Below, piece after piece: positions 6,541-29,511 of a stretch of 64,000 bases of DNA (the first letter of the stretch is position 1; the number at the start of each line of letters is the position of its first letter). Under the pieces are notes generated by a model. The model had not been told where the DNA came from, did no database searches, and was given only the letters and a program-made list of their open reading frames with translations. This DNA is from Lunularia cruciata (lineage: Eukaryota > Streptophyta > Marchantiopsida > Lunulariales > Lunulariaceae), in assembly GCA_948567375.1 (NCBI GenBank), contig OX419759.1, forward strand, positions 43,118,593-43,182,592, given 5' to 3'. The position numbers and the translations under genes were made by a program.

Positions 6541-6549
6541 CAGCAGGAT

Positions 6550-7335
6550 CAGACCGGAGCACGTTGGCATGGTGAGACAGATGAGGAGATTGTGCCAGGT
6601 TGGCATGCATCTGCCTTTCTATGTATATTTTCTAAGGCTTTGGTGGTATCTCTCTCAGCACATACAGGAGGAGTTATTGAGGTCACAGATCTAGAGAGTG
6701 AAGATATTGGTATAGTTCAGCGAGACATTCATGATGATGTCTTAGTGATGGACTATCTTTGCACTGGTGTTGTGGGTGGCACAATTGGGGCCAAGGAGAG
6801 AGACCGTGTTCTTCAGCAAGCCCAACGGTTCAGATTGGAGAGTAGAGACCTTTTGCGTGTATGGGAGGATGGTAGAGTGCGAGTAGTACCACTTCCATCT
6901 CAGAGACCACAGTTGGTCCGTCACGCTCATGAGGAGCTAGGACATTTTGGAGTAAAGCAAACATATAGCTTACTCCAGAGTCACTATTGGTGGCACGGTA
7001 TGCAGACTAAGGTACAGTAGTTTGTTGCCAGATGTGTGGTTTGTGACCAAGTTAGAGCATCATTCAATGCTCCTACACCACAATTACACCCATTACCTAT
7101 CATGGGATTGGGTTATCATTGGAGTTTGGACTTTGCTGGACCTTTACCGCTGACTGTGAGACATCATCGGTATGTTTTGGTGATGGTGGAGCACTTCTCC
7201 AAGTGGATTAAGTTGGTGGCACTTCTTGACAAGTCTAGTGAAGGGACAGCTTACTCATTCTTGGATCGAGTTCTTAGTCATTTTGGTGCACCAGCTGAGG
7301 TTTTGACTGATCAGGGTACAGAGTTCTTGGGAGAG
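6550..7335 (+). pseudogene. Copy A: integrase, N-terminal and first half of the catalytic core
   Basis: The HHCC zinc-binding module is readable (HAHEELGHFGVKQTYSLL, then CVVCDQVRA). It is followed by the start of the DDE core: the first Asp in SLDFAGPLPL and the second in LTDQGTEFLGE. The frame then runs directly into element X at 7336. TAG at 7018-7020 stands for a CAG of copy B. The integrase resumes at 11,139. Confidence 0.85.
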
Positions 7336-7712
7336 TGTGGTGCCCACATTTTTTGTTTTTTCCAAAATAAAGGAGAAGAAGTGTATAGAGAAGTCGGATT
7401 ACGCTTGTATGGCCGAAGAAGACGAAGAAAATTGTCTTCGGGGTGAAACCCGAAGTAAAGTGACTTCGGGTCATAAGGCAAAGTACTCTGAAATGTCGTG
7501 TCAGCACACAATACAAAGTAAATTGTCTTCGGCTCGGGGGGAGCTCAACCCGAGGCAAAGACAGTCTAACAACCTTTTGTCGGGGCAAGAAATTCAAGAA
7601 GGGGCCGTTTCAAAATTGGTGGCTCATACGCGCGAAGGTGGGGTGACAATGACAGGTGCATGCCGGAGGTGTGATTTCTCGGTAGAAACTTGAAGCGACG
7701 GAAGACAAAGAA

Positions 7713-10337
7713 GTGCAACTCTATAAAAATCAAAACTGCAACGACAAAATGTTGAGCAATTTTCCTTCGCCGTTGAGGAGTCGTCTTGCAGGTGATCGGG
7801 GAAAGGGAAATAGAGTTGGACTCGTGTTAGTGCGTAAGGGAGAAGTCGAGAGAGAGAAATCAAGAGACCGAAAGAAAGCAGAAGAGATGGGAGGAGGGAA
7901 GAAGAACTCTGAATTTGTAGTGAGAAATCATGCAATTTGGAGATTAGATATAGTAGCGAGGATCGAAGTCTTGAGCCGACTTTGGATCACTTTTCTGGCA
8001 TGGAACTGGAATGTAAGTTTTCCAAGATTCATGACAAAAATCATCAAGAGTAAATGTCTCGATGGTTCCGAGGAAGAAGGGAAGAGAGGAACTCCGGCTC
8101 GCTGGACAGAGTCGGATTGGAGACTCGTACTCGGGAAGGCGGCAGGCTCGGAGCAGGGAGCCACGTTCTTGGGGAAAGGAGAGATAGCCCAAGAAACACA
8201 GGAGGTGAGAGATGCCTTCTCGTCGAAGAGGACAAAGAATGGGTATAAAGTTGAGAGCTATAAGGACCCAGTGAGGAGAGGAATTGTGAGTGCACTAATG
8301 GCACTCCTGAAGCCGGAGAGAACTACCTATGTGATGAAACACCAAGCGGTGTTCTTTCACAAGTTATTTGCAGGAGAACCGATAAATTGGGCAAGGTGCT
8401 TTCACGGAAGAACGAGGCAGATGGTGTGGAATCTGCGGGATAAGTCGCCTCCACACTACATCATACCATTTGCAGCCCATTTTTACCTTGGGTTAAATCT
8501 GCTCAATGTGGCGGAGCGTAATCGAATGGTGTCTCATTTCCATCCTGATTTGAGAAGAGAAGTCGACGCGGAGGAGCAGCAATACATTCTCCAAATCCGG
8601 AGCACAGACGATTACTACGCGAAGACAGGGAAGAACGTGGAAGTCGTTGAAAGTACCCCGACGAAGAAGAGAACTTGGCAAGCAAAAGCCGAAGAAAACA
8701 AGAAACCTTGGAAAATGCAGAAAAATAACCCGAGGCAAGGAATGGTGGTGATTGAGTCGGAAGATGAAGACTCAGGAGGCAAAGCCGAGCTCAAGACGGA
8801 GGACTCGGACCGTGAGGAGGAACCTGAGCTGACATTGCAAAGTGGAGATATGAGCAGTGACAGTGAGGAAGGAGGAGAGATGACATCGGTACCAGCGGCT
8901 AAAGAATACAAAGAAGAAATGCCAGCCAAAGTAGAAACCAAAGACAATGCGGCGCTAGAAGACGAAGTACCAGTGTGCGAGGAGAAGAAGATCGCAGTAT
9001 AGCAAGGAATTCGCTCGAGACATAAGGCGAAGTGTGAAGCGGGACCGAGTAGAGTGAAGGAAGAGGTAGAAGGAAGCTCGGGCAGTGAGGCATCGATTCC
9101 GATACGAAGACTCCAGAGAAGAAGGCGAGTATCGGGAGAACACGAGGAAAGAAGAGAGACCACTCCGTGGGAGGACAAAGTTGTCAATAATGGAGTAGAT
9201 TACCTGTAGATGGTAGTATGCCCGCTGTTGGTGAAGATGGAGAAGAAGAAGAAGGAGATGCAGTCTATTTGTCCAGAGGTAAAGACTGTGTTGCAGGTCT
9301 TATCAAGATTGGAAGAAGAAAACTCGGAGTTAAAGAAAAGTATAACCCGAGGAGAGGAAGAGAGAGAAGTACTGCAAGCAGAAGCAGTCAAGAGGAGTCA
9401 AGTAATCAAAGACCTAAAGAGAGAAGTGAGTTATAGAGAAGATCTTGCGAGGAAGAGTGACATCGCAAGGGAGAGACAGGTAGCGGAGCATGAAATCTTG
9501 AAGCAGCAGTTTGCTGATTCAAGAGTCGAACTCATCCATGCTATGGCAAGGGTAGCATCAAAGGATCAAGAGCTCGATCGAGTGATGGAGAGTATGGAGG
9601 AGAAGAAGCAACTCTGGCAGCGAGAGTTGGCTGCGAGATATAGAGAAGAAGAGAGATTACAAGACTTACTTCGTAATCAGGAAGAGAAGGTTGCACAGAA
9701 GGAGAAAGAGAAGGGAGCGGTGAAGGCCGAATTCAAAGAAGAATTGGCGATGTACAAAGAAGAATGGCTCGCAGATCAGGAACGCGAACGCAAGACAAGA
9801 TTGGAGCCATTGAAGGAAATTGTCCTCAGAGTAAACGCAATGTTGAGTACAGAGGCCAGCGTTCGAATTGAGGAGACGAGATTGCACGAGTTAAAACTAT
9901 TGGTGCAGGGAACGAGGCGAAGACAAGCAAAAGATATAGATTTGAGTGCCTTGTTGATTAAATTGAGAACTTGTGTAGATAGGAAGATCTTAGAAGTAGA
10001 AGACAATATCGCAATTAGATTAGACTTAGTGAGAATAGAGTTAGAAAAGCTTCGGCAGGATGTTAAGGCCAAACCTGAAGTAGATAACATCGGGATCCAA
10101 ATGTCTTCGGAGTTGCATCGGATCCAAATGTCTTCAGAGACATTAGAGAAGAGTGGGTCAAAGGATGAGGAGTTAGATAGATTACCCACTAGTGCAATTT
10201 CAGATCAGGAAAGAGAATTGCTGGATCTGGTAGAAGATGTGGGAGATCTGAAACCCGAGGAAAGAATAGTAGGAAGTAAGATTACTTCGGGTTCAGGGTT
10301 GAAAGCCGAGGAAGAAGTAGACATTGGATCGGATTAG
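7713..10337 (+). pseudogene. Element X long coiled-coil protein, one frame with two in-frame amber codons
   Basis: One frame of about 875 codons runs from 7713 to 10337 and is broken only by TAG at 9000-9002 and TAG at 9207-9209. The N-terminal half has a globular-looking region with many tryptophans and aromatics (about residues 180-290), followed by a very acidic stretch (ESEDEDSGG, SDREEEPE). The C-terminal half is Lys/Glu/Arg-rich with long heptad-like stretches, a probable coiled coil. No zinc knuckle, protease or polymerase motif is visible, and I do not recognise the family. The true start may be a later Met. The C-terminal region is conserved in the second element X copy (GIQMSS, LEKSGSKDEELD, AEEEVDIGSD), so it is a genuine part of the element. 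A Gag-like or accessory role is only a guess. Confidence 0.6.
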
Positions 10338-11138
10338 TAACCGATTTGAGATTTGAAGGGGCAGATATGAAGAGGTGCATTGTCATTTTGGATCTTCAGG
10401 TTAGAACAGTTGTTGTAGAAACGGTATAGTTGTTAGAACTGTCGATTGCTTCACTATTTAAGAGTGGCATTCGTAGGAAATTGTTGTTCAGTGCTCATTA
10501 TTTTTGAGAATAGATAAAGCAAAATGCTGTGAAGCAGTGCTCGTCGCTTGAGCTTGATTCCGAGTATCAACTTTGTAATTGTGTTTGTGAATGTTTGGAG
10601 AAATTCGAAGTGCAAGTCAGAGTGCTTGTTGGATGTTGGATTCCACAGCCTTGATCTTCATTCTGTGTGTTTGATCCTGAGTGAAGTGCAATCGAAGCAA
10701 TGCCTTCACAGATCTGAGAGGAATTGTAGTGTTGGTAGTATTCTGCATTTGTGAGTGCAGTGCGAAGTTGGTGTGAAGCAATTTTGATTGAGGAAGTTGT
10801 GCCTTCAGTGGAAGGGTGGAACACAATTCTGAGGCGAAGTCGTTTTGCAGTGAAGTGCCGTTTTCGGGAGAGCCTGAATCATCACAATCAAGATTGTTTG
10901 GAAATAATTGATGGAGTTGTGATTAAGGAGTGTGAATTTGTGACAAGACTGTGAGTCAATGCTTATTACTCTCTGTTACTCTCTGGGTGTGGTTTCTACC
11001 TGAGAGACTAAAGAAGAACTCAAGAAGAACTGAAATTGTTACTTTGCTTTGTATTTGGACATTTCTAACTCGTATCTCTGCGGGAACGAACTTTACTTAC
11101 CTGATTACCGCAAAAGTGATATTTGTCGGGTTGTCACA
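10338..11138 (+). other. Element X 3' tail with TATA-like box
   Basis: Noncoding 3' part of element X. A purine run (TTGAAGGGGCAG, about 10354-10365) just after the stop codon looks like a polypurine tract. A TATA-like CTATTTAAGAG lies at about 10454-10464. The last 400 bases recur inverted at 12,262-12,629 and are conserved up to the terminal TTGTCACA. The arrangement resembles a U3-R-U5 tail, but no matching copy exists at the 5' end of the insert. Confidence 0.45.
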
Positions 11139-11974
11139 AAGAGTTTCAGGTCTTGTGTGACAAGGCTTTGATTGATCATCGTACTACATCCCAAGATCAC
11201 CTTGAGACAGATGGCTTAGTAGAGAAAGTGGTTCAAACGGTGAAGAGAAGATTGCAAAAGTATGGTTTGCAGAGAGGCCACTTGGGATATTGGGATCTCC
11301 AATTACCTTGGTTGGCCATGGGCTATCGGTTCAGCCGGCAAGCCTCCTTAGCATCCTTCTCTCCATACTTTCTACTCTATGGACAAGATCCAGATTTACC
11401 TGCAGCCATTCGTCAAGATGCTATTGTAGTTTTGGACTTGGATGACCCAGATGTATGGATGAGCGCATGTTCTCAACAAGCAGAGATCTTTTGGAGAGTG
11501 ATGCCAATGGCCTTTGAGAACTTGGCAATTGCTCACCATAGAGATACTTTACGCTGTGCTACCATTTGAGGAGGAGGTTATAGACCCTTGATCCGTCAAT
11601 TTCATCCATGCGACTATGTATATCTACAACAGACAACACCGACGACACTTGATGTTTCAACGGGTTGCACTATCTTGAGAGTGCATGAGGTTTTGCCATT
11701 TGGAGTCTTTGTGTTTGAAAGACGTGATGGTGTTGTTTGGAAGGATCATGTGCGCAATTGTGCACCATGACACCTCCTAAACATTGATGGTACTATGGAC
11801 CCAAGCTTGGCACTTGTACATGCAGGCTTGAGGTGTATGTTATGTGGCTCTTCTGGTAGAGCTGCTACTATGTTAGTGTGTGATAGTTGTTTGAGAGGAT
11901 GGCATATGGCATGTATGACTCCTTCCCTCACGGTGGTTCCTCAAGGACAATGGTTATGTCCTAGATGTACTTGA
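11139..11974 (+). pseudogene. Copy A: integrase C-terminal half and PHD finger
   Basis: The integrase resumes after the element X insertion (FQVLCDKALIDHRTTS). It contains the region with the third acidic residue (ADGLAER in copy B is decayed to TDGLVEK here), the C-terminal barrel-like module (FHPCDYVYLQQT) and a C-terminal PHD finger at about 11,833-11,970. All eight zinc ligands of the finger are kept (CMLC, CDSC, H-x2-C, CPRC). A stop at 11,569 and a TGA for TGC at 11,768 break the frame. The codon at 11,384-11,386 is CAA where copy B has TGA. Confidence 0.8.
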
Positions 11975-12141
11975 CCTATAGTTAGTTCATTCTTTATATG
12001 GTATAGATTACAGACATGCGACTAATGATGGGGCTCCATAGCACATGGCCTCCTGATCTTTGCCCATTATAGGGTATACCATATACTTGGAGTAGATGGC
12101 TATATGGAGTTAGAGGGACCCAACCGCCAGCTAGGGAGTGA

Positions 12142-12261
12142 TTGTGGCACTTTAGAGTTCATGTATGACTTATGTGTGAGTTGTGCTTCTATAGTGTATG
12201 ATGTTGACATCGATGTATGTTATGTAGCAATGTATATACGCACGATAGCTATCATGCCATT
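12142..12261 (+). repeat. Copy A 3' terminal repeats, left part (103-bp repeat and LTR start)
   Basis: After the PHD stop codon and about 165 bases of 3' leader comes a copy of the 103-bp repeat (TGTGGCACTTTAGAG to TATATACGCACGA) and then the first bases of the 449-bp LTR core (tatcatgccatt). The core is cut at 12,261 by element X copy 2. The last five bases, ccatt, recur at 23,973-23,977 where the core resumes. Confidence 0.75.
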
Positions 12262-12632
12262 TGTGACAACCCGGCAAATATCACTTTTGCGGTAATTGGG
12301 TAAGTAAAGTTTGTTCCCGCAGAGATACTATCCAAAATTGGTCAAATACAAAGTCAAAAGTCACAATTGCAGTTCTTCTTGATTTCTTCTTTAATCTCTT
12401 AGGTAGAAACTACACCCAGAAGAGAGTAACAAGCTCACAATCTTGACAACTTGTCATGAATACACACACATAATCACATCATAGCAAATTCTGTCCAAAC
12501 AACTCTTGATTGTGATGATTCAGATTCTCCCGAAGACGGCAGTTCACTACGAAGATTGATTTTGTCTCAGAAATTGTGTTCCACTCCTCCATTGAAGGCA
12601 CAACTTCCTCGATTGAAATTGCTTCACATTGT

Positions 12633-12735
12633 CGTGCGTATATACATCGCTACACAACATACATCGCTGTCAACATCATACACTATAAAAGCACAACTCA
12701 CACATAAGTCATACATAGACTCTAAAGTGCCACAA
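12633..12735 (-). repeat. 103-bp direct repeat, outer copy
   Basis: Identical over 103 bases to 13,190-13,292. It starts with GTGGCACTTTAGAG next to the 3' LTR core and ends TATATACGCACG just before the element end GACA. Similar copies follow the LTR of copy A (24,430-24,532) and end copy C (29,512-29,600). It is missing at the corresponding place of the 5' LTR of copy B. Confidence 0.85.
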
Positions 12736-13184
12736 TAATCAGATTGCTTAACACTTTCAACTCAATTCAACTCAGATCAGTACTTGATCTGTCACTCTAT
12801 AAACTGCCAACAACTGGGCACTGATTACAGTCAAGCCACACCCACTCAAGCATAGAGAATCCAGGTGACGCTCACCGGCCTCTGTCCACCATAGCCAGGA
12901 ACTCGAAGGCTCAACATCAGAGAAGTGAGCTCTCTGGAGCTCACTTCAAAACTATACCCCCTGGACTCAAGCTAGCCCTGAAACCCTAACGGTCCCGCTG
13001 ACGGCACACTCGATGGTGCAAACGGTGCAAAGTGACGGTGGGCCCCACCGTGAAGTCAGTACCCCGAACACAAAATCTAACCGTCGGAAAGTAGTCCCTG
13101 AGAAACAGCTAGAATAACTCTAACTACCATCATTGGAACTCCAGTGTCCGAGCATCTAGATGCGGAACTACAAATGGCGTGACA
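12736..13184 (-). repeat. 3' LTR core of copy B (449 bp)
   Basis: On the minus strand it reads from TGTCACGCCATTTG to AATCTGATTA. It matches 22,488-22,040 with about ten substitutions, which identifies the pair as LTRs. Further copies lie at 23,978-24,425 and, truncated, at 12,250-12,261. A weak TATA-like GTTTATAGAG lies near 12,795. Confidence 0.88.
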
Positions 13185-13189
13185 GCTAT

Positions 13190-13303
13190 CGTGCGTATAT
13201 ACATCGCTACACAACATACATCGCTGTCAACATCATACACTATAAAAGCACAACTCACACATAAGTCATACATAGACTCTAAAGTGCCACAATCGCCCCC
13301 CTA
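13190..13303 (-). repeat. 103-bp direct repeat, inner copy, with polypurine tract
   Basis: The 103-bp repeat (13,292-13,190) directly follows a purine run AGGGGGGCGA (13,303-13,294), the natural polypurine tract for plus-strand DNA priming. A polypurine tract normally abuts the 3' LTR, which argues that the LTR begins with this repeat. The 4-base target duplication, however, places the element end after the outer repeat. The two signals conflict. Confidence 0.7.
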
Positions 13304-13460
13304 GCTGGCGGTTAGGTCCCTCTAACTCCAGATAGCCATCTACTCTAAGTATATGGTATACCCTCTAATGGGCAAAGATCAAGAGGCCGGGTGCTATGGA
13401 GCCCCATCGTTAGTCGCCTGTCTGCAATCTATACCATATAAAGAATGAACTAGCTATAAG

Positions 13461-14048
13461 TCAAGTACATCTAGGACATAACCACTGTCCCTGAGGAACC
13501 ACCGTGAGGGGAGGAGTCATACATGCCATATGCCATCCTCTCGAACAGCTATCACACACTAACATAGTAGCAGCTCCACCAGAAGAGCCACATAACATAC
13601 ACCTCAAGCCTGCACGTACAAGTGCCAAGCTTGGGTCCATAGTACCATCAATGTTTGGGAGGTGGCATGGCGCACAATTGCGCACATGATCCTTCCAAAC
13701 AACACCATCACGTCCTTCTAACACAAGGACTCCAGATGGCAAAACCTCGCGCACTCTCAAGATAGTGCGGCCTGTAGAAACATCAAGTGTCGTCGGTGCT
13801 GTCTGCTGTAGATATACATAGTCGCCTAGATGAAATCGACGAATCAAGGGTCTATAACCTCCTCCTCGAATGGTAGCATAGCGTAAAGTATCTCTATGCT
13901 GAGCAATCGCCAAGTTCTCAAAGGCCATCGGCATCACTCTCCGAAAGATCTCTGCCCGCTGAGAACATGCGCTCATCCATACATCGGGGTCATCCAAGTC
14001 CAAAACTATAGTAGCATCTCGACAAATGGCTGCAGGTAAATCTGGATC
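13461..14048 (-). pseudogene. Integrase C-terminal domain and PHD finger (copy B)
   Basis: Continues the polyprotein frame after TGA 14,051-14,049. The first 100 residues hold the integrase C-terminal module (FHLGDYVYLQQTAPTT, RVREVLPSGVLVLEGRDG), which usually contacts DNA. A complete PHD finger closes the protein at about 13,605-13,465: CMLC, CDSC, H-x2-C and CPRC, with the hallmark GWHMAC, the proline-rich turn and the Trp two residues before the last cysteine pair (GQWLCPRC). PHD fingers bind histone H3 tails, mostly by the state of Lys4. At the end of an integrase it takes the position that a chromodomain has in chromoviruses, so a role in choosing chromatin targets is a reasonable inference. 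Which mark it reads cannot be told. Confidence 0.88.
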
Positions 14049-15653
14049 TCATCCATAGAGTAGGAAGTATGGAGAGAAGGATGCTAAGGAGGCTTGCCGG
14101 CTGAACCGATAGCCCATGGCCAACCAAGGTAACTGGAGATCCCAATCTCCCAAGTGGCCTCTCTGCAAACCATACTTTCGCAATCCTCTCTTCACCGTCT
14201 GAACCACTCTCTCTGCTAAGCCATCTGCCTCAGGGTGATCTCGGGATGTAGTACGATGATCAATCAAAGCCTTGTCACACAAGACCTGAAACTCTCCCAA
14301 GAACTCTGTACCCTGATCAGTCAAAACCTCAGCTGGTGCACCAAAATGACTAAGAACTCGATCCAGGAACGAGTAAGCTGTCCCTTCACTAGACTTGTCA
14401 GGAAGTGCCACCAACTCAATCCACTTGGAGAAGTGCTCCACCATCACCAAAACATACCGATGATGTCTCACAGTCAGCGGTAAAGGTCCGGCAAAGTCCA
14501 AACTCCAACGGTAACCCAATCCCATGATAGGTAATGGGTGTAACTGTGGCGTAGGAGCATTGAATGATGCCCTAACTCGGTCACAAACCATACATCTGGC
14601 AACAAACTGCTGTACCTCGGTCTGCATACCACGCCACCAATAATGACTCTGAAGTAAGCTATATGTACGCTCTACTCCAAAATGTCCTAGCTCCTCATGA
14701 GCATGACGGACCAACTGTGGTCTCTGTGATGGAAGTGGTACTACTCGCACTCTACCATCCTCCCATACACGCAAAAGGTGTCTACCCTCCAATCTGAACC
14801 GTCTGGCTCGCTGAAGAACACGGTCTCTCTCCTTGGCCCCAACTGTGCCACCCACAACACCAGTGCAAAGATAGTCCATCACTAAGACATCATCATGAAT
14901 GTCTCGCTGAACTGTACCAATATCTTCACTCTCTGGATTTGTGACCTCAATAACTCCTCCTGTATGCGCTGAGAGAGATACCACCAATGTCTCTGCAAAT
15001 ATACACAGAAAGGCTAATGCATGCCAACCTGGCACCATCTCCTCATCTGTCTCACCATGCCAACGTGCTCCGGTCTGATCCTGCTGGCTGGGACATGGGT
15101 TTCTACTCAACCCATCTGCATCACGGTTCACCACTCCAGGTCTGTGAACAACCGTGAAATCATACTCCTGTAAAATCAGAGCCCATCGTGCAAGCTTCCT
15201 TGAAAGCTTGTCGGACTCCATCAACCACTTCAGCGGCTGATGATCAGTGATGAGAGTGAAGGGGTTACCAAATAGGTAACATTGGAAATGTGCTACTGCC
15301 CAAACTGCTGCCAAGCACTCTCCCTCATATGAACTATACTTCGCCTCCGCTGAATTGTTGGAGCGACTAGCATAGGCCACCACAAACTCCTTCTCCTCAT
15401 CATCATGTTGGGTGAGCACCGCTCCAAGCCCCAACATACTCCAATCAGTGTGAACCTGAAATGGTTGTCCCCTGATCGGTCTCCTCAAAATAGGAGCAGA
15501 TGTCAACCTCTCCTTGAGCTCTACAAAAGCTCTCTCCTGCTCATCTCCCCAACACCACTCATGTGTAAGCTTGGTCAGCTTTGTCAAGGCCTTGGCAATG
15601 GCACTAAATCCTCTAACATAGCGGTGATAGAAGTTCGCCAACCCAAGGAATGC
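14049..15653 (-). pseudogene. RNase H and integrase catalytic core (copy B)
   Basis: Open from the TGA at 15,656 to the TGA at 14,051. It begins with the RT connection (AFLGLANFYHRYVRGF). The Ty3/gypsy RNase H follows, with the catalytic Asp in HTDWSMLGLGAVL, the Glu in YSSYEGECLAAVWAV and the Asp in LITDHQPLKWLM. After a spacer comes the integrase: the HHCC zinc module (HAHEELGHFGVERTY, CMVCDRVRA) and the DDE core with Asp in SLDFAGPLPL, Asp in LTDQGTEFLGE and Glu in ADGLAERVVQ. RNase H removes the RNA template and integrase inserts the DNA copy. All catalytic residues seen are intact. Confidence 0.92.
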
Positions 15654-16574
15654 TCACACTCTGCTCACATCCGTAGGCCGAGGAATACGTGCAATAGCCT
15701 CCACCTTGGTCTGCTGAACACCAAGTCCTCCGGGGTAGATAGTGTGACCCAAATACTCAACCTGCTCATGGAAGAACCTACACTTCCCAGGATGTAATTT
15801 GAGTCCATGAGATCTCAACCTCTCAAACACCTCCAACAACTGTCTCTCATGCTCCTCCACAGTAGTGCTATACACCAAAATGTCATCAATATAGCACCGA
15901 GCAAAACCCAATCCAGCTAGGATCCTATCCATGACCCTCTGGAACTCAGCAGGAGCATTCTTCAACCCAAATGGTAAGAATCTCCACTGATATAACACAT
16001 CCTTGCCGTGAGGATCAATAGCCCAAAATGCTATCTTGGACTTATCTTCCTCCCTGATCGGCAACTGATGATATCCCGCTCGAAGATCCAAAGTACTGAA
16101 GACCTTTGCATGCCCAATCGCATCAAAAATCTCCTCCGGTATAGGCATGGCATACCGATCAGCCCTGGTCTGTCGGTTGATAGGACGGTAATCTCCACAC
16201 ATCCGCCTATCTGTATAGTTGCCATGCATATCCTTCTTGGCTGGCATCACTGTCGCTGATGCATACTCTCCATGTGAAATCTCCACCAATACAGCCTCAA
16301 AAAGGTCACTACTCCGGCTCTGAATCAATGTCCTCTCCATATCACTATATTGATAAGGACGTCGGAAAACAGGTGTGTCACTAGTCAGCTCAATCCGTAT
16401 ACCAGGTCCTTTCAGAGCACCCAAATCCTTCATACTGAAGGCAAAACAACTCGTGTGACTCCTCAAGAACCTCCAAACCCTCCGTCTTTCCTCTCCAGTA
16501 AGCTTGGGTCCAAGATCTGGCTCCCAAGTATCCTCTGTAACTGTAGTAGGAGTGGAAGACGTACTGACTGGCTG
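15654..16574 (-). pseudogene. Reverse transcriptase (copy B)
   Basis: Downstream of the shared amber codon the frame is open to TGA 15,656-15,654. The first Met is at 16,466, but readthrough would enter directly at 16,574. The Ty3/gypsy RT motifs are complete: IELTSDTPVFRRPYQYS, PAKKD, DYRPINRQT, FSTLDLRAGYHQLPI, LPFGLKNAPAEFQRVMD, the catalytic YIDDILVYS at about residues 192-200 of the Met-started frame, and KCRFF...VEYLGH. It copies the element RNA into DNA in cytoplasmic particles. The TGA lies in the codon where gypsy elements usually have Arg (VRAFLGL or similar), consistent with CGA to TGA. Confidence 0.92.
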
Positions 16575-16577
16575 CTA
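16569..16577 (-). promoter_or_regulatory. Amber codon in leaky-stop context between methyltransferase and RT (copy B)
   Basis: On the minus strand the bases are TAG CAG CCA, exactly the readthrough consensus UAG-CAR-YYA known from tobamovirus replicase genes. The same nine bases lie at 5050-5058 in copy A. The frame is open on both sides, so occasional reading through would join Gag-PR-MTase to RT-RH-IN-PHD. Shared presence in two diverged copies argues that it is not a random lesion. Function is inferred. Confidence 0.6.
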
Positions 16578-18920
16578 TACTGGGCCCTTGGGAGCAATGG
16601 TGTCATGCTCCTGACCACTAGAGGTCCCAACCTTTGTGTGAAAAACTCCCTCCACTCTGGCTGCAAGCTCCATACGTCCTCTGGCTGCATCCCATGTGGA
16701 CCAAGGGTGTAATCCAAGTAGCCCACGCTCACCTGGATGGACTCCAAGTAGACTACTCTCCCTAGTAGCTACTGGATGTGTCCCAAGAATACCATGTCCA
16801 CTCGGTCCATCGCCCCCAGCATGTGCCTGAATCGTCTCGATAGGCACAGGGCTCACAAGTGTCCGAGTGGTGATGCCTATCAAGCGCATCCTACGCTGCT
16901 CTGCCAAACCAAGGCTCACAATCCAGGTCAAACAGTTCAGGTCCATAGCCTGACCTAACACCTGACGCCTAGATGCCTCTGACATTGCTGGAACAGCGGT
17001 AATACCGGTGCAAAAACCCATCGCCCGCTCTCTCTCATCAGCATTGGGCTCCACCAACTGCTGTAACTGTGAGTCCCAAACAAGTCCAGGTCCTCCCTCT
17101 CGAAAAGCATGAGAGCCTGGGAAACTCATGAGTGTGGGAAATGCAGCTCTAGGCTGTCCAACTAGGTTCACCACTGCCATAGGTGACCTATCAGCCACTA
17201 CCACTGTTTGAGACTGACGTCCAACATCCAAGATATCATCAACAAGAATGTGGTCTAGTCGCTGAATCCCATCATAACTACGCTGTAGAACCTCTCTGGG
17301 TAAAAGGTTCGTCCACCAAAGACGAAGACGATGAGCCCGTGATCCCACTCTGGCTGCATCTAACAATACAGCAGGTCCCATCCAAGAATGGACCTGATGT
17401 GTACTCACCACCACTCTAGTGCGAGAATCACCCATCAATGGAACGTTCTCCAAAAGGTAAGCTGGAGAAACAGACTGATGAACCTGGAGATGTCGTAGTA
17501 TCCGTAACATCTCCCAAAACACACTAGAACGAGGATCCTGAAGACCCAAACCGCGGCCCGCACGTGTATGTCCCTGACATGGCCATCCAGAAATCACCAA
17601 GTGAATAGGCCCATGTCTCTCTAGGTCATGCGCCCCCAATAAGGAAATGTCTCCTGGTAAGGCCTTCTGGTAACCTCTGACTGCTGACATTGATAATAAC
17701 TCCGGATACCGATAGGCCAAGTGTGCCACATGATGTACAGAGACTCGCCTAGCAGTCTCATCTCTCTCTACATACAAGTACCTCTGTACTCGGATACCCG
17801 CCTGTAACACCGCAGCTAGTCCGGTGCTGATCCCACCAAACAACTCTAATAGACATATCCCCTCCACTGGATATTGCCAAGCAATGAGTGTGGTATCCAG
17901 AGGTGTCAAAGCAATTGCCTCTGGAGGCTCATCCTCACACTCATCCCTTGATGGTACGAAGGCTCCACTCCAAGCCTGCTGCACCAACTGATCTGCATGC
18001 TGCTGCAATGCCTCCTCTGAACTCCACAATGGAACATCCAAGGTGGATGGAACAATCCCACTCGTACTCCATAGCCGAGTGATCTCCTTTGGTACTGGAG
18101 TATCCTCTGCATGGGCGTTCCCCTCCAACAAGTCACTAGGCCAAGTAACTGCACCGCTGAAAGCCAAAACTGATGCTGCCATGGTCCCGGACTGTAGTGA
18201 GCCAAGACTGCCACTATTGAAGCGTACTGGTAGGCGACATACCCGTCCCTCACCAGACTGCCAACCAGGTCTATAAGAGGCTGTCTCCTCCCAATAGTCA
18301 ATACAGAAACCCATAGGGTATAACACTGCTCCCCCAACTAGCACATCATATGACTCAGCTATCGTCGCAATAGCCTGAGCTCTCACCACCGAGCTATCAG
18401 TCGGATGACCAGGCTGAACTTGGACAACAAGCTCTCCACGTGTGATGTATTGTGTCGAACCACCACCAAGAGATGTCTGGATCTGAAATGGACACCTCTC
18501 CACATCGGTCTTCCATAACTCCAGACCAACAACTGCAGCCTTCCCCAACATAAGGGGCTGCGCACCAGAGTCTAACAAGACTCTCTGTGGTGTATAGACC
18601 TTCCCTGAAGGTCCCACCAAACAAAAGATCCCCCTCTGGTTATCCAATAGGACAACACCAGGTGTAAACCGCGCTCTCTCAAAGGCCGGTCTAGTTGGCA
18701 ACTCCTCCAGTCTAGCCGCTGTTGCCTGCCATAAACCACTGGTCGCTGAACGGATCCCATGCTCCTCAACCAAGTCAGATCCACTACCAACCACCTCTGC
18801 TCTAGTAGTAGGAACCGCACCATCCCTACTCTCACACAACGTGGCAGCCAACCGGAACACTGGGGCTGGGTCCACTCCCAATGTAAACATGTCACTGGCT
18901 GAAAATAAAGGATGCCGCAT
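16575..18920 (-). CDS. Retropepsin and DNMT3-like cytosine-C5 DNA methyltransferase (copy B)
   Basis: A 781-codon segment of the polyprotein; the Met at 18,920 is only the first after the Gag TAG. Residues about 85-205 are an aspartic protease with the active-site triad in VLLDSGAQPLMLG (Asp 117). Residues about 354-670 are a cytosine-C5 methyltransferase with motifs in the unpermuted order: I (LLELFGGIS, 357-365, AdoMet binding), IV with catalytic Cys (SGWPCQGHT, PCQ 447-449), VI (ENVPL, 491-495), VIII (HRLRLWWTNL, 530-539) and IX/X (ERERAMGFCTGIT, then RRQVLGQAMDLN). The HRxRxxW-x-NL form of motif VIII and the spacing resemble DNMT3 rather than plant DRM, which is permuted, or MET1/CMT. All key catalytic residues are present, so the domain may be active. 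A linker with three LLGxHP-like repeats (about 709-740) leads to the amber codon. Retrotransposon-borne methyltransferases have been reported in dinoflagellates and charophyte algae. Confidence 0.9.
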   Translation of the reverse strand: MRHPLFSASDMFTLGVDPAPVFRLAATLCESRDGAVPTTRAEVVGSGSDLVEEHGIRSATSGLWQATAARLEELPTRPAFERARFTPGVVLLDNQRGIFCLVGPSGKVYTPQRVLLDSGAQPLMLGKAAVVGLELWKTDVERCPFQIQTSLGGGSTQYITRGELVVQVQPGHPTDSSVVRAQAIATIAESYDVLVGGAVLYPMGFCIDYWEETASYRPGWQSGEGRVCRLPVRFNSGSLGSLQSGTMAASVLAFSGAVTWPSDLLEGNAHAEDTPVPKEITRLWSTSGIVPSTLDVPLWSSEEALQQHADQLVQQAWSGAFVPSRDECEDEPPEAIALTPLDTTLIAWQYPVEGICLLELFGGISTGLAAVLQAGIRVQRYLYVERDETARRVSVHHVAHLAYRYPELLSMSAVRGYQKALPGDISLLGAHDLERHGPIHLVISGWPCQGHTRAGRGLGLQDPRSSVFWEMLRILRHLQVHQSVSPAYLLENVPLMGDSRTRVVVSTHQVHSWMGPAVLLDAARVGSRAHRLRLWWTNLLPREVLQRSYDGIQRLDHILVDDILDVGRQSQTVVVADRSPMAVVNLVGQPRAAFPTLMSFPGSHAFREGGPGLVWDSQLQQLVEPNADERERAMGFCTGITAVPAMSEASRRQVLGQAMDLNCLTWIVSLGLAEQRRMRLIGITTRTLVSPVPIETIQAHAGGDGPSGHGILGTHPVATRESSLLGVHPGERGLLGLHPWSTWDAARGRMELAARVEGVFHTKVGTSSGQEHDTIAPKGPV

Positions 18921-18926
18921 AATCAG

Positions 18927-20783
18927 CTAAGCCGCCCCCAACATCATGCTAGACTCGGTCTGTGTAGTAGCAGGTGGCTGACTAGCAGGTACTCCATCAC
19001 CACCTACCACACCTGCACTGGGACGTCTAGGAACCATGGATGTCGTCTGCAATGCCTCAGATAGCGTGAAAGACTGGGGAAGTCTGACCTGTCTCCCAAC
19101 CTCTCCTCTCTGTGGGTCCAACTCCACTGATGCTCCTCTAGGCTCTGGAGCACGTACTGCACTCCTAGTCACTGCTGCAGATGCATCCACCTGTGCTGCT
19201 CCGCACATGAAGTCCAAAGCATCTCTATCACCAGCATATGAGGTGGAAGCCTCAGCACCCGAATCTGATCTCCTCTGAGCAATAGCCATACTAGCCAATC
19301 TCTGCTCCAACTGCTCAATCCGAGTAGCCATAGTTGTGTCAGAAGTAAGGGCAGGTACAGCACCCCTACTAGGAGTAGATCCTCTACCACCTCGTCCTCC
19401 ATGAACTGGAGCTCCTCTACTACCTGTCATAGCAGCCCTACCACTCCGTAACTCCGGGTGTAGGTCAAAACACCGGTCACTAGTATGACCAAATCTATGG
19501 CAGTGCTCACACTGCCTCTGTGCTGGCTGTGATGCACCAGAGGTATCAGGTCCGCTGCCCTGAGTACACTCTCTCCTATGGTGAGGTCCACCACAAGTCC
19601 AACAAGCAACACCACCACTCACTGGCTGCTGCTGACCCAAAAATGAGGGTAAGGGTCTAACTCCACTAGGCCCTCCACTCGCTCCATAGGATCTGGGCTG
19701 TCCACCCTGTCCTCGAAAACCAACTGGGCGTGGTGCACTCTGCTGCACTCTAGAAGAAGTCACAACCGTAGATGAGGTCTCTCTACCAAATCCAGCTGTC
19801 ACCACTCTCTCCTCCACCATGTTGAGCTCAATACGCTCAGCCAAACCAAAGACTACTGCCAAAGTGGGCGAAGTAGCCTGCAACAACGTAGCATCACGAA
19901 CTCTACGTCGCAACTCCCTGTCCAGTATCCCATACCAAAACTGGACTGCCTGGGCCTCAGTAACTCCTTGAGTGAAACTGATCAGCCGCCTCATGCGAGT
20001 GTATGCCTCGCGTAGGCTCTCTCCAGCCTTCCGCTGGAACTCCTGCAAGCTCCTCAGCTTGTCAGTCCGCACTCCTTGGTATTTTTGCCTCAAACATAGG
20101 AAGAACTCCACCATGGGGTTAAACCCCGGTACCACACCACCTCCTGCAGCGGTACCTCCACTCGTAGTAGCACTATCTCCAGCTAGTGCACCTCCACTAG
20201 CTCCACCAACACTACTCGAGCTAGAACTCGTAGGTACAGCCGACCTACTCCTGGCCACCAAACCTGAAGTGATGGAGACATAGTGTGGAGACCAATACTG
20301 TCTCCATAACTCAATCTCCTCCAAATGAGCTCTCCTGAACTCATGGTAGTCGTCCATCGGTGGACCCTCCAAGTGCTTAAACAACCCCTTCCATGCCATG
20401 AAAGGTGTGAACAAAGTCGGGTTCCGCATCTGCTGCAGATCACACCAACTATCAAACTCCTGGATGAAGTCATCCAACTCAATGGTACCCACTGTACCAG
20501 AGTAACGCCTAGGGCCTTTGGAGGCCCCATAAATCTCGTCCATGTCCCACAACAACGGTGCGGACACACCAAGTGCACTCTCAACTGAATCAGCTCCTGT
20601 GTCGAACTCCAACTCAGAGTCAATCTCCTCCCTCACTGGGACCTGAGATACAGGCTGATACCGAGCACCACTCCGAGTAAACCCACTATGTACTGCAGGG
20701 CTAACTCCTCTGGAATCTCCAAAGAACTCCGTCGTGACCACGTAACTGCAACAGCAAACCCGAACCACCAACTGCAACCGCAA
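18927..20783 (-). CDS. Gag with two CCHC zinc knuckles (copy B)
   Basis: The 618-codon 5' part of the polyprotein frame. Residues about 85-170 are a conserved-looking N-terminal region (IELDDFIQEFDSWCDLQQMR). Residues about 220-330 form a typical retrotransposon Gag capsid region (FFLCLRQKYQGVRTDKL, SLREAYTRMRRLISF, QAVQFWYGILDRELRRRV). Two zinc knuckles follow at 394-406 (CWTCGGPHHRREC) and 425-438 (CEHCHRFGHTSDRC), which bind element RNA. The end has a short coiled-coil-like stretch (ATRIEQLEQRLA). Gag assembles the particle in which reverse transcription takes place. The terminating TAG at 18,929-18,927 is CAG in copy A, and its context (TAG CTG) is not a known leaky one, so it is probably a CAG to TAG mutation. 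The start Met is the first in the frame; a later Met is possible. Confidence 0.88.
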   Translation of the reverse strand: MRLQLVVRVCCCSYVVTTEFFGDSRGVSPAVHSGFTRSGARYQPVSQVPVREEIDSELEFDTGADSVESALGVSAPLLWDMDEIYGASKGPRRYSGTVGTIELDDFIQEFDSWCDLQQMRNPTLFTPFMAWKGLFKHLEGPPMDDYHEFRRAHLEEIELWRQYWSPHYVSITSGLVARSRSAVPTSSSSSSVGGASGGALAGDSATTSGGTAAGGGVVPGFNPMVEFFLCLRQKYQGVRTDKLRSLQEFQRKAGESLREAYTRMRRLISFTQGVTEAQAVQFWYGILDRELRRRVRDATLLQATSPTLAVVFGLAERIELNMVEERVVTAGFGRETSSTVVTSSRVQQSAPRPVGFRGQGGQPRSYGASGGPSGVRPLPSFLGQQQPVSGGVACWTCGGPHHRRECTQGSGPDTSGASQPAQRQCEHCHRFGHTSDRCFDLHPELRSGRAAMTGSRGAPVHGGRGGRGSTPSRGAVPALTSDTTMATRIEQLEQRLASMAIAQRRSDSGAEASTSYAGDRDALDFMCGAAQVDASAAVTRSAVRAPEPRGASVELDPQRGEVGRQVRLPQSFTLSEALQTTSMVPRRPSAGVVGGDGVPASQPPATTQTESSMMLGAA

Positions 20784-21285
20784 GTCGCAACTACAAGTGC
20801 CCCACCAAGTGCCAACACCAACTAGACACCACCCACTAATGTAACTCTAACCGAGATAACTACACTAGGGGAAGGGCAACCTGTAACCTGCCATCATAAC
20901 ACGCACTCTCACGGTCTGCAGGTCATCACTTCCTGCCTCACCGGAGAGAAACAAAGGTAGTCTGACTGGTCATCACTCCAGCCTCACCACCGAGAGCACA
21001 CCAGAGCACCAACGTTCAAAAGTCAAGGCACCTCACACAAACGTGGTGCACAAACAGGAAGCAGAGCATGGAGGGGATCCAATCACAAGAAATCTAAATG
21101 AAAACCCTCCATCTCATAACACAACACGGGACTGACTCTGCCACCATTTGGCATTTGACATAAGAGTAGTTCGTATCTAAGTCCTAAGCTACCAGGATCA
21201 CCAAGAATGGGATCAAACTGCCTCTCCTAGCCAAAGCTACATGTGTATAGATAACAGTGGCACAGTCACTATGACAACAAGTGAG

Positions 21286-21355
21286 GGTGGACCAGTTGGC
21301 TAGGGCACCAGTCTAGGAACAAGAGATCTAGGGGTCAAACCCTGTTGCGCACAAT
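21286..21355 (+). mobile_element. tRNA-like SINE fragment, antisense in the copy B leader
   Basis: On the plus strand an RNA polymerase III A-box-like TGGACCAGTTGG (21,288-21,299) is followed about 33 bases later by a B-box-like GGGTCAAACCC (21,332-21,342), which differs at one position from GGTTCAAACCC. The context (GGCACCAGTCTAGG, AACAAGAGATCT, GTTGCGC) closely resembles the tRNA-related head of Au-type plant SINEs. It is not a functional tRNA gene: no cloverleaf with a full acceptor stem can be drawn. The body and tail of a SINE are not evident. Confidence 0.45.
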
Positions 21356-21538
21356 CTAGCAAGAAAGGCAGATTTTGCCAACCAATGACCAAGATCTACA
21401 CTAAACTAGCTAGCATCACGCCAGCAAGCTGGCTTGCTGGCCCTTCTAGGCCTTCGTAGCCTCTCATAGCCCACCGCCCTATGCCTCGAAGCCTCTAAAC
21501 GCCGAAATTCAGCCAAATGAGGCCTTTCTTGTTGCCAC

Positions 21539-21655
21539 TTCGAACCTCCTCCAAAATTGGCAAAACTTCTCCAAATCTGCGAAACTCCTCCAAACTAGCG
21601 AAACTTCTCCAAATCTGGCCAAACAGCGAAACTCCTCCAATTCTGGCCCAAAATC
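21539..21655. repeat. Degenerate short tandem repeat in the copy B leader
   Basis: Five or so units of about 20-25 bases built on CGAAACTTCTCCAAATCTGG with variants CGAAACTCCTCCAAAC. No coding meaning is evident. Confidence 0.55.
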
Positions 21656-22037
21656 TGACGTAAACCCTAAAGATGGATGTCCGCCAAATCCCCCGCTAAC
21701 TTTCCACTCGAGCCAAATTGACAAAACGGGTTTTTCCAAATCACAATTTCATGAGAAGAGCTTTCCAACTCCACCTTCAATTTCACTTTCTGAGCCCAAC
21801 TCGTAGCACATTGGTCCTGCCTTCACCTCCTCAAAAATTGCTCCTTCTTTGCTCGAAATTTGGCCAGCGCTTCCGCACACCGCCCGCCTAACTGCCAAAT
21901 TTGCATCAACTACACGAGCTTCTGCACACTAGGGAAACATAGAACCTAAATCGAGCTACCACGATCCACCGAGCTTGGAGATACCACCAACACTCAACGT
22001 TCCTGCAACCGATTTCCCCCTGACTTCACTTCTCTGA

Positions 22038-22488
22038 TGTAATCAGATTGCTTAACACTTTCAACTCAACTCAACTCAGATCAGTACTTGATCTGTCACT
22101 CTATAAACTACCAACAACTGGGCACTGATTACAGTCAAGCCACACCCACTCAAGCATAGAGAATCCAGGTGACGCTTGCCGGCCTCTGTCCACCATAGCC
22201 AGGAACTCGAAGGCTCAACATCAGAGAAGTGAGCTCTCTGGAGCTCACTTTGAAACTATATCCCCTGGACTCGAGCTAGCCCTGAAACCCTAACGGTCCC
22301 GCTGACGGCACACTCGACGGTGCAAACGGTGCAAAGTGACGGTGGGCCCCACCGTGAAGTCAGTACCCCGAACACAAAATCTAACCGTCGGAAAGTAGTC
22401 CCTGAGAAACAGCTAGAATAACTCTAACTACCATCACTGGAACTCCAGTGTCCGAGCATCTAGATGCGGAACTACAAATGGCGTGACA
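22038..22488 (-). repeat. 5' LTR of copy B (lacks the 103-bp tail)
   Basis: On the minus strand it runs from TGTCACGCC at 22,488 to CTGATTACA at 22,038 and pairs with the 3' LTR core 13,184-12,736 (about 98% identical). Unlike the 3' end, the core is not followed by the 103-bp repeat but goes straight into the leader. Either the repeat and part of the primer site were deleted or the LTR limits differ from those assumed here. Confidence 0.85.
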
Positions 22489-22924
22489 ACATCAACTTTG
22501 TGTTGCACTCACCAATGCAGAATACTACCAACACTACAATTCCTCTCAGATCTGTCAAGGCATTGTTCCGATGCACTTCACTCAGGATCAAACACACAGA
22601 ATGAAGATCAAGGCTACAAATTCCAACATCCACAAACACACTGACTTGCTCTTTGGAATTCTTCACACACTCACAACTACAAACATGAAATTGACAATCG
22701 AAATTAAGCTTAAGCGACGAGTACTAAGAACATCACTTCACTTTATCTATCTTTAGAAATATGAATACTGAATAATATTATAATGCGAATGCTCCCCTTA
22801 AATACTGAAGCAAACGGCAGTTCTTCCTACCTATGCACCGCTTCTTAACATCTCTTCCTACCTATAGATCCCAATTGATAATCTATCTCTTCATATTTGC
22901 CTCTTCCTATCTCAAAATTGACAC

Positions 22925-23233
22925 TTACACCGATCCGATGTCTACCTCATCATCGGCTTCCAAACCCGATAATCTTCTTATTACTTCTCCTTCTTTGGGT
23001 ATAGCTAATTCTACCAATTCCTTCACTATTTCTACTACTTCTACACTACAATCTACAATTGAGCTCATGGGTAATCCATCTACATCCTTATCTCCTGACC
23101 CACTCTTCTCTAATGTATCAAATAACAAGTCCGATGACACCTGTACTCCTACTTCTACAACATCTGGTCTAATTACAATAAATTCCTTTGCTAATTCTAC
23201 TATATCCTTATCACAAATTGTAATTGAAAGCAT
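22925..23233 (-). pseudogene. Element X copy 2: remnant of the C-terminal coding region
   Basis: A 102-codon minus-strand frame that aligns with the C-terminal end of the long element X protein: VGVQVSSDLLFDTLEKSGSG corresponds to IGIQMSSE...LEKSGSKDEELD, and LEADDEVDIGSV corresponds to LKAEEEVDIGSD. The N-terminal and central coding parts are missing. It shows selection on, or at least common descent of, this C-terminal segment in both copies. Confidence 0.65.
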
Positions 23234-23977
23234 GTGTACACTATCTACGCCTTCAATTTGTAACCCACTTTCCCCTAATCAGTCATGTTATTGACCCGAA
23301 GACACTTACAATCTAATCTTGCACTTTGGGTTTATTCACTACTGCTACTTTTCCTTCAATTCCTATTCCATCTTCAATTGGAACTAAAATTGAAGTCATG
23401 AGTATCCTAATTATCTATTCTTTCTCTATCCTAACTCTCTTTAATGCCTCTGGCAAGATTCTCGAAGTCATTTTCATTGCACTCCGAGGTCCGACTATCT
23501 CAGATACAGTCATCTTCGTCTTGAGTTGAAGAAGCTTCTAACCCAAAGTTGTGTAAACCTGAAGTCCGAAGTCCGAAGACGCCAACCCGAAGACACTGAA
23601 CTACTTTGTACAGTTACTCCCAAAACTTTAAACTTGTAACTTGTTCTACAGACCTCCAAACTTTGCAATTTTGGTAGCCACGAAAAGCCCTGAACAAGAA
23701 GCTTCCAAAAAAATATAGCACGCTTGATTTGGACTTGTGAACATTGAGATATAGCCCCCGCAAGAATCTCGACCTGTAACTTCTATTCCTCCTTCAGGTC
23801 TGTCTTCTTTCAATCTTGGCTGAGTCCGTCTTCATTTGACACAAAGTCGACTTCTTTGGGCTTGATCAAAATACAAATTTCCTCTCATTTCTTCTCCATT
23901 TGGTTTCAATTTGGTTTCAACAAGGCACTTCTTCTTCAAAACTCGTCCAAAATGAAAAATGTGGGTACCACACCATT

Positions 23978-24532
23978 TGTAGTGTCAGATCTAGATTGCT
24001 CAGACACTAGAGTTGCAGTGATAGTAGTTAGAGTTATTTCAAAAATTCCTCAGAGACTACTTTCTGATGGTCAGATTTTGTGTTTGGGGTACTGACTTCA
24101 CGGTGGGGCCCAGTGTCACTTTGTTGCACCGTTTGCACCATCAAGTGTGCCGTCAGCGAGACCGTTACGGTTCTGACCTAGCTCGAGTCCAGGAGGTATA
24201 CTCTCGAAGTGCAGCTCCAGAGAGCTCACTTCTTTGATGTTGAGCCTTCGAGTTCCTGGCTATGGTAGACAGAGATCAGCGAGCGTCACCTAGATTCTCT
24301 ATGCTGGAGTGGGTGTGGCTTGACTGTAATCAGTGCCTAGTTGTTGATAGTTTATGGAGTGATAGATCAAGTACTGATCTGAGTTGAGTTGAGTTGAGTT
24401 GAGAGTGGTAAACAATCTGATTATTATGGCACTTTAGAGTCTATGTATGACTTATGTGTGAGTTGTGCTTCTATAGTGTATGATGTTGACAATAATGTAT
24501 GTTGTGTAGCGATGTATATACGCACAATAGCT
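23978..24532 (+). repeat. Copy A 3' LTR, right part, with 103-bp tail
   Basis: Resumes the 449-bp LTR core of copy A after the element X copy 2 insertion and continues to AATCTGATTA. A diverged 103-bp repeat (ATGGCACTTTAGAG to TATATACGCACAATAGC) ends it. Copy A thus also has the order 103-bp repeat, core, 103-bp repeat. Downstream sequence at 24,533 is unrelated. A (GAGTT)n run of about five units lies near 24,380-24,402. Confidence 0.8.
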
Positions 24533-25273: not shown

Positions 25274-25440
25274 AGCTTGCTCTATGGCTGCTTTACTAAC
25301 AAACTTCCCTTCTATGGACTCATCTCTCTTCCAAGCCTACTCCCTGGTTGCCTTATTGGCAAACTTCCCATCTTGGGACTCATCTCCCTTCCAAGTTTGC
25401 TCTATGGTTACCTCTCGATAAACTTCCCATCTTGGGACTG
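25250..25440 (-). repeat. Three 60-bp in-frame repeats between protease and RT
   Basis: On the minus strand three units of about 60 bases encode variants of SQDGKF-x5-9-EQ-x-WKGDE, separated by one frameshift and one stop. They form a charged linker between the retropepsin and the RT of this gypsy element. Confidence 0.65.
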
Positions 25441-25810
25441 ATTTTTCTTAGGTGTCTTACTCAGAGGTGCCAAACAACCTAATCGGAAATTCCTACCTTG
25501 GTGTTGTACTTGAATCTGGCGTCGGGTCCAATCAAATTGAACCTTATGATGTTCAAGCCAAGGTAGATCCAGAATGATATCATAGTGTAGAGGTGCCACT
25601 ACAAATCTCATACCCTCCAAATACTCCTTCCCAATCTTGAAGGTAACAGGATGCGAGGTGCGGAATGCAGAACCCTTTCTACCATCCGCCATCATCAAAC
25701 TACTTCCAATCACTGGCTTGATAAGAATACTCAATTCTTTTGCTACTTGCATAGACATGCAATTCTCTGAACTTCCAAAATCAACCAAAATCCTACAACC
25801 CTAATTAGAT
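25408..25810 (-). pseudogene. Gypsy retropepsin
   Basis: The minus-strand frame reads VDFGSSENCMSMQVAKEL near its start, where gypsy retropepsins have D-S/T-G. The Asp is kept but the next residue is Phe (DFG), so activity is doubtful. Then come FKIGKEYLEGMRFVVAPL and IILDLPWLEHHKVQFDW, the conserved C-terminal half of the fold (usually ILG-x-PWL). It matures Gag-Pol in an active element. Confidence 0.75.
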
Positions 25811-27630: not shown

Positions 27631-27635
27631 AGTTG

Positions 27636-29344: not shown

Positions 29345-29511
29345 CATGTGGCTACTTCATCCTTTATATGGTATAGATTGCAGACAAATATCTAACAATG
29401 GGGCTAGATAGCATTTGGCATCTTGATCTTTTGCCCACCATATGGTATACCATATACTTGGAGTAGATGGCTATTTGGAGGTAGAGAGACCTAAATGCAA
29501 ACTAGTGACCG

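Follow-up and report, generated by a model that had tools for sequence, protein, structure and literature searches.

The window analysed here, a stretch of 64,000 nucleotides from the liverwort Lunularia cruciata (contig OX419759.1, positions 43,118,593 to 43,182,592), harbors a retroelement on its minus strand, here named copy B, that spans 12,630-22,488 according to self-BLAST and junction reading (TG at 22,488, CA at 12,630). Its gene order, read from 20,846 to 13,461, is Gag-protease-cytosine-5 methyltransferase (MTase), a UAG codon, and reverse transcriptase (RT)-RNase H-integrase-PHD finger. The Gag-like frame (18,930-20,846) contains two CCHC-type knuckles recognized by eye and matches PF03732 below the cut-off (E value of 0.022). 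It is followed by the protease region (17,916-18,926), assigned by its DSG motif; none of the window's own open reading frames (ORFs) gave a Pfam match to a protease, and PF13650 is annotated as a protease domain in the related proteins P0023, P0068, and P0070. Further downstream lie the DNMT3-type MTase domain (16,821-17,915), the UAG (16,575-16,577), and, abutting it, the hexanucleotide CAGCCA (16,569-16,574), which fits the pattern CARYYA. The second half of the coding region encodes the RT (15,657-16,574; PF00078, E value of 3e-31), RNase H and integrase with H2C2 and rve core (14,052-15,653; Pfam), and an integrase tail (13,464-14,048) that ends in a C4HC3 PHD finger at about 13,464-13,601 (PF00628, E value of 9.9e-12).

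Copy B shows the Ty3/gypsy order protease-RT-RNase H-DDE integrase, with the protease recognized via its DSG motif only. Its integrase is of the DDE type (rve) and not a DIRS-like tyrosine recombinase, for which no dedicated search was made. Together with the repeats and ends described below, the order Gag-protease-MTase, UAG-CARYYA, RT-RNase H-integrase-PHD is almost certainly the anatomy of the element.

The methyltransferase and the stop behind it

As the first-pass annotation of the window had described, the minus-strand frame 18,926-16,578 contains a DSG retropepsin motif followed by C5-MTase motifs in the normal, unpermuted order (I, IV, VI, VIII, and IX/X), including PC, ENV, and RxR. 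The frame matched PF00145 with an E value of 9.8e-8 (32.2 bits at a cut-off of 22); the coordinates initially given for the enzyme, 16,911-17,861, cover its core and fall short of the edges of the domain. A PDB profile search ranked DNMT3A (2.7e-22), with DNMT3B, ahead of DRM, HaeIII, HhaI, and DNMT2; the best 60 of its 61 matches included neither DNMT1 nor CMT, which does not exclude them. Structure alignments based on an AlphaFold model revealed 24 to 27% identity to the catalytic domain of DNMT3A/B. Furthermore, the MTase grouped with DNMT3A against bacterial enzymes (support 100/99.5) in a tree that has a single DNMT3 row, lacking its target-recognition part and on a long branch, and that was built without plant DNMT3, DRM, CMT, or MET1. 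Its rows comprised 14 proteins of a larger family tree, the related locus L008 introduced below, and, as bacterial and viral rows, 17 of the remaining 29 loci fetched (L001-L030). That larger tree included 40 of 77 proteins (window included), each covering at least 280 of the 365 MTase columns. When the window MTase was aligned with 23 homologues chosen by hand, the catalytic Cys, Glu, and Arg were invariant in all 24 rows; the identity was 45 to 71% to 19 of the 23 relatives and 35 to 41% to the remaining four. No second Pfam domain was found in the MTase ORF at an E value of 0.1.

Profile, predicted fold, and the tree with bacterial enzymes all identify the domain as DNMT3-type. This agrees with the captured DNMT3-like MTase first proposed, and the tree leaves the domain with DNMT3A instead of placing it outside the C5 MTases. 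Chance similarity was rejected given the agreement of Pfam, PDB profile, fold, and tree, and a DRM-type MTase was rejected on motif order. A recent phage or bacterial enzyme was rejected as well: a scan of viral contigs yielded seven loci, with 26 to 47% in their best segments, and the bacterial rows lie outside in the tree. The RNase H-integrase protein gave no match when compared with viral contigs.

A second copy on the plus strand, copy A, carries the same MTase fusion in its part from Gag to integrase (2,249-7,336), which is 92% identical to copy B, and this bears out the earlier suggestion that the fusion is ancestral to both copies. The frame of copy B is broken by TAG at 18,927, TAG at 16,575, TGA at 15,654, and TGA at 14,049 and ends at 13,461. 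The single continuous frame of the first-pass annotation is thus not present, although RT, RNase H, and integrase do follow the MTase in the same frame, as it had stated and as Pfam matches indicate. Opposite the stops at 18,927, 15,654, and 14,049 copy A has sense codons, while it keeps a stop opposite 16,575 and opposite 13,461; elsewhere it has further stops and indels of its own. Being common to both copies, the stop at 16,575 looks like a part of the element.

A related locus, L008 (contig CADCWO010000201.1), turned up when prokaryote genomes were scanned. The GTDB genome that holds it bears the label uncultured Synechococcales cyanobacterium; L008 is probably a stray eukaryotic contig contaminating a cyanobacterial metagenome-assembled genome. 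Its MTase is 52% identical over residues 4 to 344. In L008 an open frame runs through 1162 codons from a point inside Gag up to the MTase end, reaches a TAG, and beyond it stays open for another 908 codons, as far as the fetched piece extends, whereas copies A and B have further stops downstream of this site. Pfam assigns PF00145 (6.8e-12) before the TAG and RT, RNase H, and integrase after it; PF13650 scored below the cut-off (E value of 8e-4). Copies A and B both read TAG-CAGCCA after the MTase, and L008 reads TAG-CAATCA at the equivalent place, so that the CARYYA rule is kept with letters that differ from those of the liverwort. CARYYA follows 17 of 6512 stop triplets (any frame) in the window and 2 of 395 in L008, one of the latter being the MTase-RT site.

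The readthrough stop of Tobacco mosaic virus is UAG. The CARYYA hexanucleotide is reported to be important for readthrough in this virus (PMC4132726). Since UAG-CARYYA is shared by copies A and B and L008, we count the MTase with the Gag-protease precursor, of which it is the predicted tail, and not as embedded in a continuous Pol; this departs from the initial description of an MTase inside a Ty3/gypsy polyprotein. RT-integrase-PHD would probably be made by readthrough of the UAG. Reading every stop as a lesion was set aside because the copies have the stop between MTase and RT in common and it is conserved. Of the rows in which the MTase end is complete (38, counting the window; some may end at contig edges), 29 terminate 22 to 175 residues further on, before the RT. 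The remaining nine comprise the proteins P0073, P0076, and P0077, five gene models from Marchantia or Sphagnum, and one from Closterium.

Relatives, repeats and neighbouring insertions

A search with the protease-MTase protein listed 56 matches, including 23 from Marchantia polymorpha, 2 from Calypogeia fissa, and 3 from Sphagnum, and a search from P0026 listed 26 (counting the query and five Marchantia proteins of the first list), with Closterium sp. NIES-65 among them. Both scored only about 8000 candidates, and the absence of other groups means little; the name Klebsormidium does not occur among the 56 and 26 matches listed, half or more of which have no organism label. In relatives, MTase and Pol parts occur on one contig or protein, and thus no sign was seen of an origin from different adjacent elements, the finding that the first-pass annotation had named as a refutation. 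Two adjacent elements as the source of MTase and Pol were rejected, the same junction being found in copies A and B and L008.

The PHD finger 3' of the integrase is absent from the initial description of the element. Solved structures near to it include the PHD fingers of CHD4, KMT2D, KDM5, and ATXR5. A PHD finger after the integrase region is also present in P0034 (Marchantia) and in P0073, P0076, and P0077, and in P0073 a Tudor-type domain (PF21743) lies behind it. In the latter three proteins the MTase precedes the integrase, or lies between it and RNase H, and the PHD finger comes behind. This order indicates that the domain has changed place or was captured twice.

Two identical long terminal repeats (LTRs) are not present in copy B. 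Instead, its repeats follow the order A-coding-B-A-B, the split direct repeats of DIRS elements, and we therefore call the element Gypsy-type by its proteins and not a canonical LTR element. All of these features were read on the minus strand. Repeat A1 at the left end (22,040-22,488) shares 439 of 449 bases with the internal A2 (12,736-13,184), a difference of 2.2%. Repeat B1, 3' of the coding region (13,189-13,293), is identical in 105 of 105 bases to B2, which together with the terminal CA forms the right end (12,630-12,736, by junction reading). AGGGGGG (13,296-13,302), directly before B1, resembles a polypurine tract and may serve as one, and a by-eye look for a tRNA primer site revealed a weak ATCAGAG. 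The A-coding-B-A-B order could have arisen from an opened circle with tandem repeats. Copy B has TG...CA ends and a 4-bp target-site duplication, ATGT, at 22,489-22,492 (left) and 12,626-12,629 (right), identified by comparing the flanks with a paralogue, element X. In X the empty target site (near 10,774) is present once, as GTGT, with one of four bases differing from ATGT.

The insertions form a nest at 2,249-24,532, in which X and a further element X' interrupt copy A and copy B in turn interrupts X'; this structure gives the relative order of the insertions. Besides the part described above, copy A comprises its integrase end, PHD region, B1, and start of A2 (11,140-12,264, plus strand, 93% identity to copy B) and, according to self-BLAST, the remainder of A2 and B2 (23,969-24,532, plus strand). 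The B-A-B end is thus common to copies A and B, split in copy A by X'. Copy C (27,633-29,590, plus strand), a truncated RNase H-integrase-B remnant, shows 86 to 87% identity to copies A and B. It seems to finish in a single B (29,512-29,590) without A2-B2, as expected from recombination between B1 and B2.

Element X (7,337-11,139, plus strand, 3.8 kb) sits within copy A and contains ORFs of 438 and 375 amino acids, for which no Pfam match was found. Its stretch 10,137-11,140 matches X', the target of copy B, without interruption. X' itself (12,260-12,628 and 22,489-23,968, minus strand) is shorter than X and lies within the A2 repeat of copy A, flanked by the 5-bp target duplication CCATT. Both X and X' begin with TGTG and finish with CACA. 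A retropepsin-like fragment adjoining the nest (25,408-25,800, minus strand; PF13650, E value of 1e-4, just below the cut-off) belongs to another LTR element.

Outside the nest, an F-box/LRR-type gene at 34,492-36,342 (plus strand, single ORF) is 82% identical to its counterpart in Marchantia paleacea over the full length and 63% identical over 98% to that of Riccia sorocarpa. By these nearest protein matches, the land-plant host that had been considered as a possibility reads as a complex thalloid liverwort. A host F-box/Kelch gene is located at 60,463-61,362 (minus strand).

Methylation scars and the proposed role of the methyltransferase

Relative to copy B, copy A showed C-to-T changes at 71 of 261 CG, 108 of 540 CHG, and 68 of 1757 CHH sites, and copy C at 40 of 116, 62 of 169, and 50 of 663 sites, respectively. 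Such losses at CG and CHG are the trace that methylation in these two contexts is expected to leave on silenced elements of plants. For copy B, synonymous shuffling, a test that fixes codon counts and thereby forces part of the TG/CA balance, gave 33 observed CG at codon borders against 120.7 expected (z of -11.1), and CWG (CAG and CTG) was not reduced (z of 1.5). Each of the five coding pieces of copy B was CG depleted on its own (z of -2.8 to -6.2). No such loss was seen in the two host genes and the two ORFs of X (z between -1.5 and 0.4). In L008, 57 and 45 CG were observed against 93.4 and 60.6 expected, again without CWG loss (z of -1.2 and -0.7). Loss of CG without loss of CWG in copy B and L008 suggests that the replicating lineage seems to be methylated at CG only. 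This pattern would fit CG methylation by the element's own enzyme or by that of the host. Retroelement DNMT3s methylated CG in the cases in which activity was seen (PMC5890265), and the CG-only scar therefore fits self-methylation.

A transposon with a de novo MTase is a paradox, since plants silence transposons by methylation. We propose that copy B represents in a liverwort a Ty3/gypsy-type family of streptophytes that captured a DNMT3-type domain and that the enzyme acts on the element itself, an explanation to which we assign an overall probability of about 0.5; the chances that methylation of the element's own DNA is the main role of the predicted enzyme are about even. Most ribosomes would stop at the UAG, so that the MTase would be made with Gag and in excess over RT and integrase. 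The protease would free it from the precursor, and it would be packaged and methylate CG in the new DNA of the element, in the particle or just after insertion. CG-methylated new copies would thereby resemble host-methylated DNA, and the PHD finger of the integrase might recognize histone H3 tails and in this way direct insertion. Host methylation at CG and CHG would later silence and erode old copies. A wider version, which we offer tentatively and consider somewhat improbable, holds that the lineage is older than land plants and combines a Gag-level DNMT3 that methylates its own cDNA at CG in each cycle, leaving a CG-only scar distinct from later CG and CHG decay by the host, with the PHD finger, so that the element would both write and read chromatin marks with proteins of its own.

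Several observations weigh against self-methylation. Copy B also carries some such changes in the reverse comparisons, far fewer than copies A and C (relative to copy A, CG 12/140, CHG 13/345, and CHH 42/1876; relative to copy C, CG 5/46, CHG 3/41, and CHH 31/723), and the depletion in L008 is milder (CpG observed/expected of 0.73 to 0.82). MET1-type methylation by the host could also explain the CG depletion. Selection does not set the MTase apart: its dN/dS between copies A and B is only 0.44, a value that mixes functional history with drift after insertion. The values of the other parts, which carry the same mixture, rise from 0.33 (RNase H-integrase) through 0.45 (protease), 0.49 (integrase end including the PHD), 0.56 (RT), and 0.69 (tail behind the MTase) to 0.77 (Gag part). 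The activity of the enzyme is predicted here from its sequence. That captured enzymes of this kind methylate CG, as stated in the first-pass annotation, was shown only for dinoflagellate DIRS enzymes, of which two SymbioDIRS-Dnmt3 copies methylated CG de novo in yeast; the only related Gypsy enzyme assayed in print, KnitGypsy-Dnmt3 from the charophyte Klebsormidium nitens, showed no methylation there, an inconclusive result (PMC5890265). The different position of the MTase, before the integrase, in P0073, P0076, and P0077 also has to be counted on this side.

Among the other explanations, the MTase might act in trans on the host genome or its regulators, relaxing or redirecting silencing, with the CG depletion as a trace of host methylation. 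An enzyme made at the level of Gag would indeed be abundant and not tied to RT or integrase, and the older copies bear the CG and CHG trace of the host pattern; copy B, unlike these, lost CG without CWG, and we regard this explanation as unlikely. We judge as still less likely that the MTase restrains the element, such that self-methylation lowers transcription of new copies, limits harm to the host, and preserves the family: a benefit to the whole family selects more weakly than a benefit to the single element. The same anatomy and CG-only footprint would suit such restraint, as would the presence of the family in liverworts, a moss genus, and Closterium, and the option was discussed by De Mendoza 2018 (PMC5890265).

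A further objection concerns the stop itself, which might not be read through, with RT-integrase made via re-initiation or from another transcript and the CARYYA match due to chance. Readthrough is judged from the sequence context alone, and gene models of Marchantia, Sphagnum, and Closterium (P0005, P0009, P0010, P0013, P0025, and P0074) join the MTase to RT/integrase parts; such models are gene predictions that may bridge a stop, and UAG plus CARYYA is kept in L008 with other CARYYA letters despite its diverged MTase. We therefore regard the absence of readthrough as improbable, to about the same degree as self-restraint. Least probable of all is a passenger MTase without current function in this liverwort. 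It would be in keeping with the stops in copies A and B, the truncation of copy C, and a dN/dS of the MTase within the range of the other parts, but the invariant catalytic residues, the identities to the 23 relatives, and the open frames of L008 argue against it.

Self-methylation remains the explanation we prefer, and the CG-only scar offers a genome-wide test of it without a new experiment. The readthrough layout predicts many MTase molecules per RT. With members in Marchantia, Calypogeia, Sphagnum, and Closterium, the family occurs in organisms with good genetics.

Comparison with known systems

Elements of this kind are already known, in detail from the Klebsormidium Gypsy case (PMC5890265) and in general terms from a survey of DNMT3s in retrotransposons (PMC12344493). 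Within the literature searched, which left most subscription papers, supplements, and Repbase reports outside, we did not meet the bryophyte range, a Gag-protease-MTase precursor with readthrough, the PHD finger, or the CG-only scar, nor any description of a PHD finger in LTR elements. The main text of a survey of plant Ty3/gypsy elements (PMC6317226) mentions no PHD, methyltransferase, Marchantia, or Klebsormidium; the lineages it describes share with copy B the Ty3/gypsy domain set and target duplications of 4 or 5 bp.

With animal DNMT3A/B the liverwort MTase shares fold, motif order, and catalytic motifs, but its motifs I and IV are farther apart, and Pfam gave no second domain in its ORF, the PHD finger being located after the integrase. 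Plant DRM gave a weaker profile match restricted to motifs I-IV, and its motifs are rearranged (PMC5890265), whereas those of the liverwort MTase are in normal order. The stop and the hexanucleotide rule are the same as in tobamovirus readthrough (PMC4132726); in the liverwort, however, the site lies between Gag-protease-MTase and RT-integrase.

The 2025 survey states that some DNMT3s are embedded in retrotransposons, as reported earlier in streptophytes and dinoflagellates (PMC12344493). It names LTR Copia and DIRS elements, and no bryophyte is named in the text covered, to which the supplements do not belong. Like copy B, the dinoflagellate SymbioDIRS-Dnmt3 is a retroelement that carries a DNMT3-type MTase and repeats in the order A-coding-B-A-B, but it uses a tyrosine recombinase instead of a DDE integrase (PMC5890265). 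According to its authors, there is no relationship between SymbioDIRS-Dnmt3 and the Gypsy case.

The closest likeness by description is to KnitGypsy-Dnmt3, which by its figure legend combines DIRS-like repeats with Gypsy-like proteins (PMC5890265). Both elements have the Ty3/gypsy domain set, an unrearranged DNMT3-type MTase in the polyprotein, and DIRS-type repeats. The host is an alga in one case and a land plant in the other, and the main text of PMC5890265, figures aside, mentions neither PHD nor readthrough for KnitGypsy-Dnmt3. Its MTase is described within the Pol ORF, whereas that of the liverwort element closes Gag-protease ahead of UAG-CARYYA, and the liverwort integrase is followed by a PHD finger.

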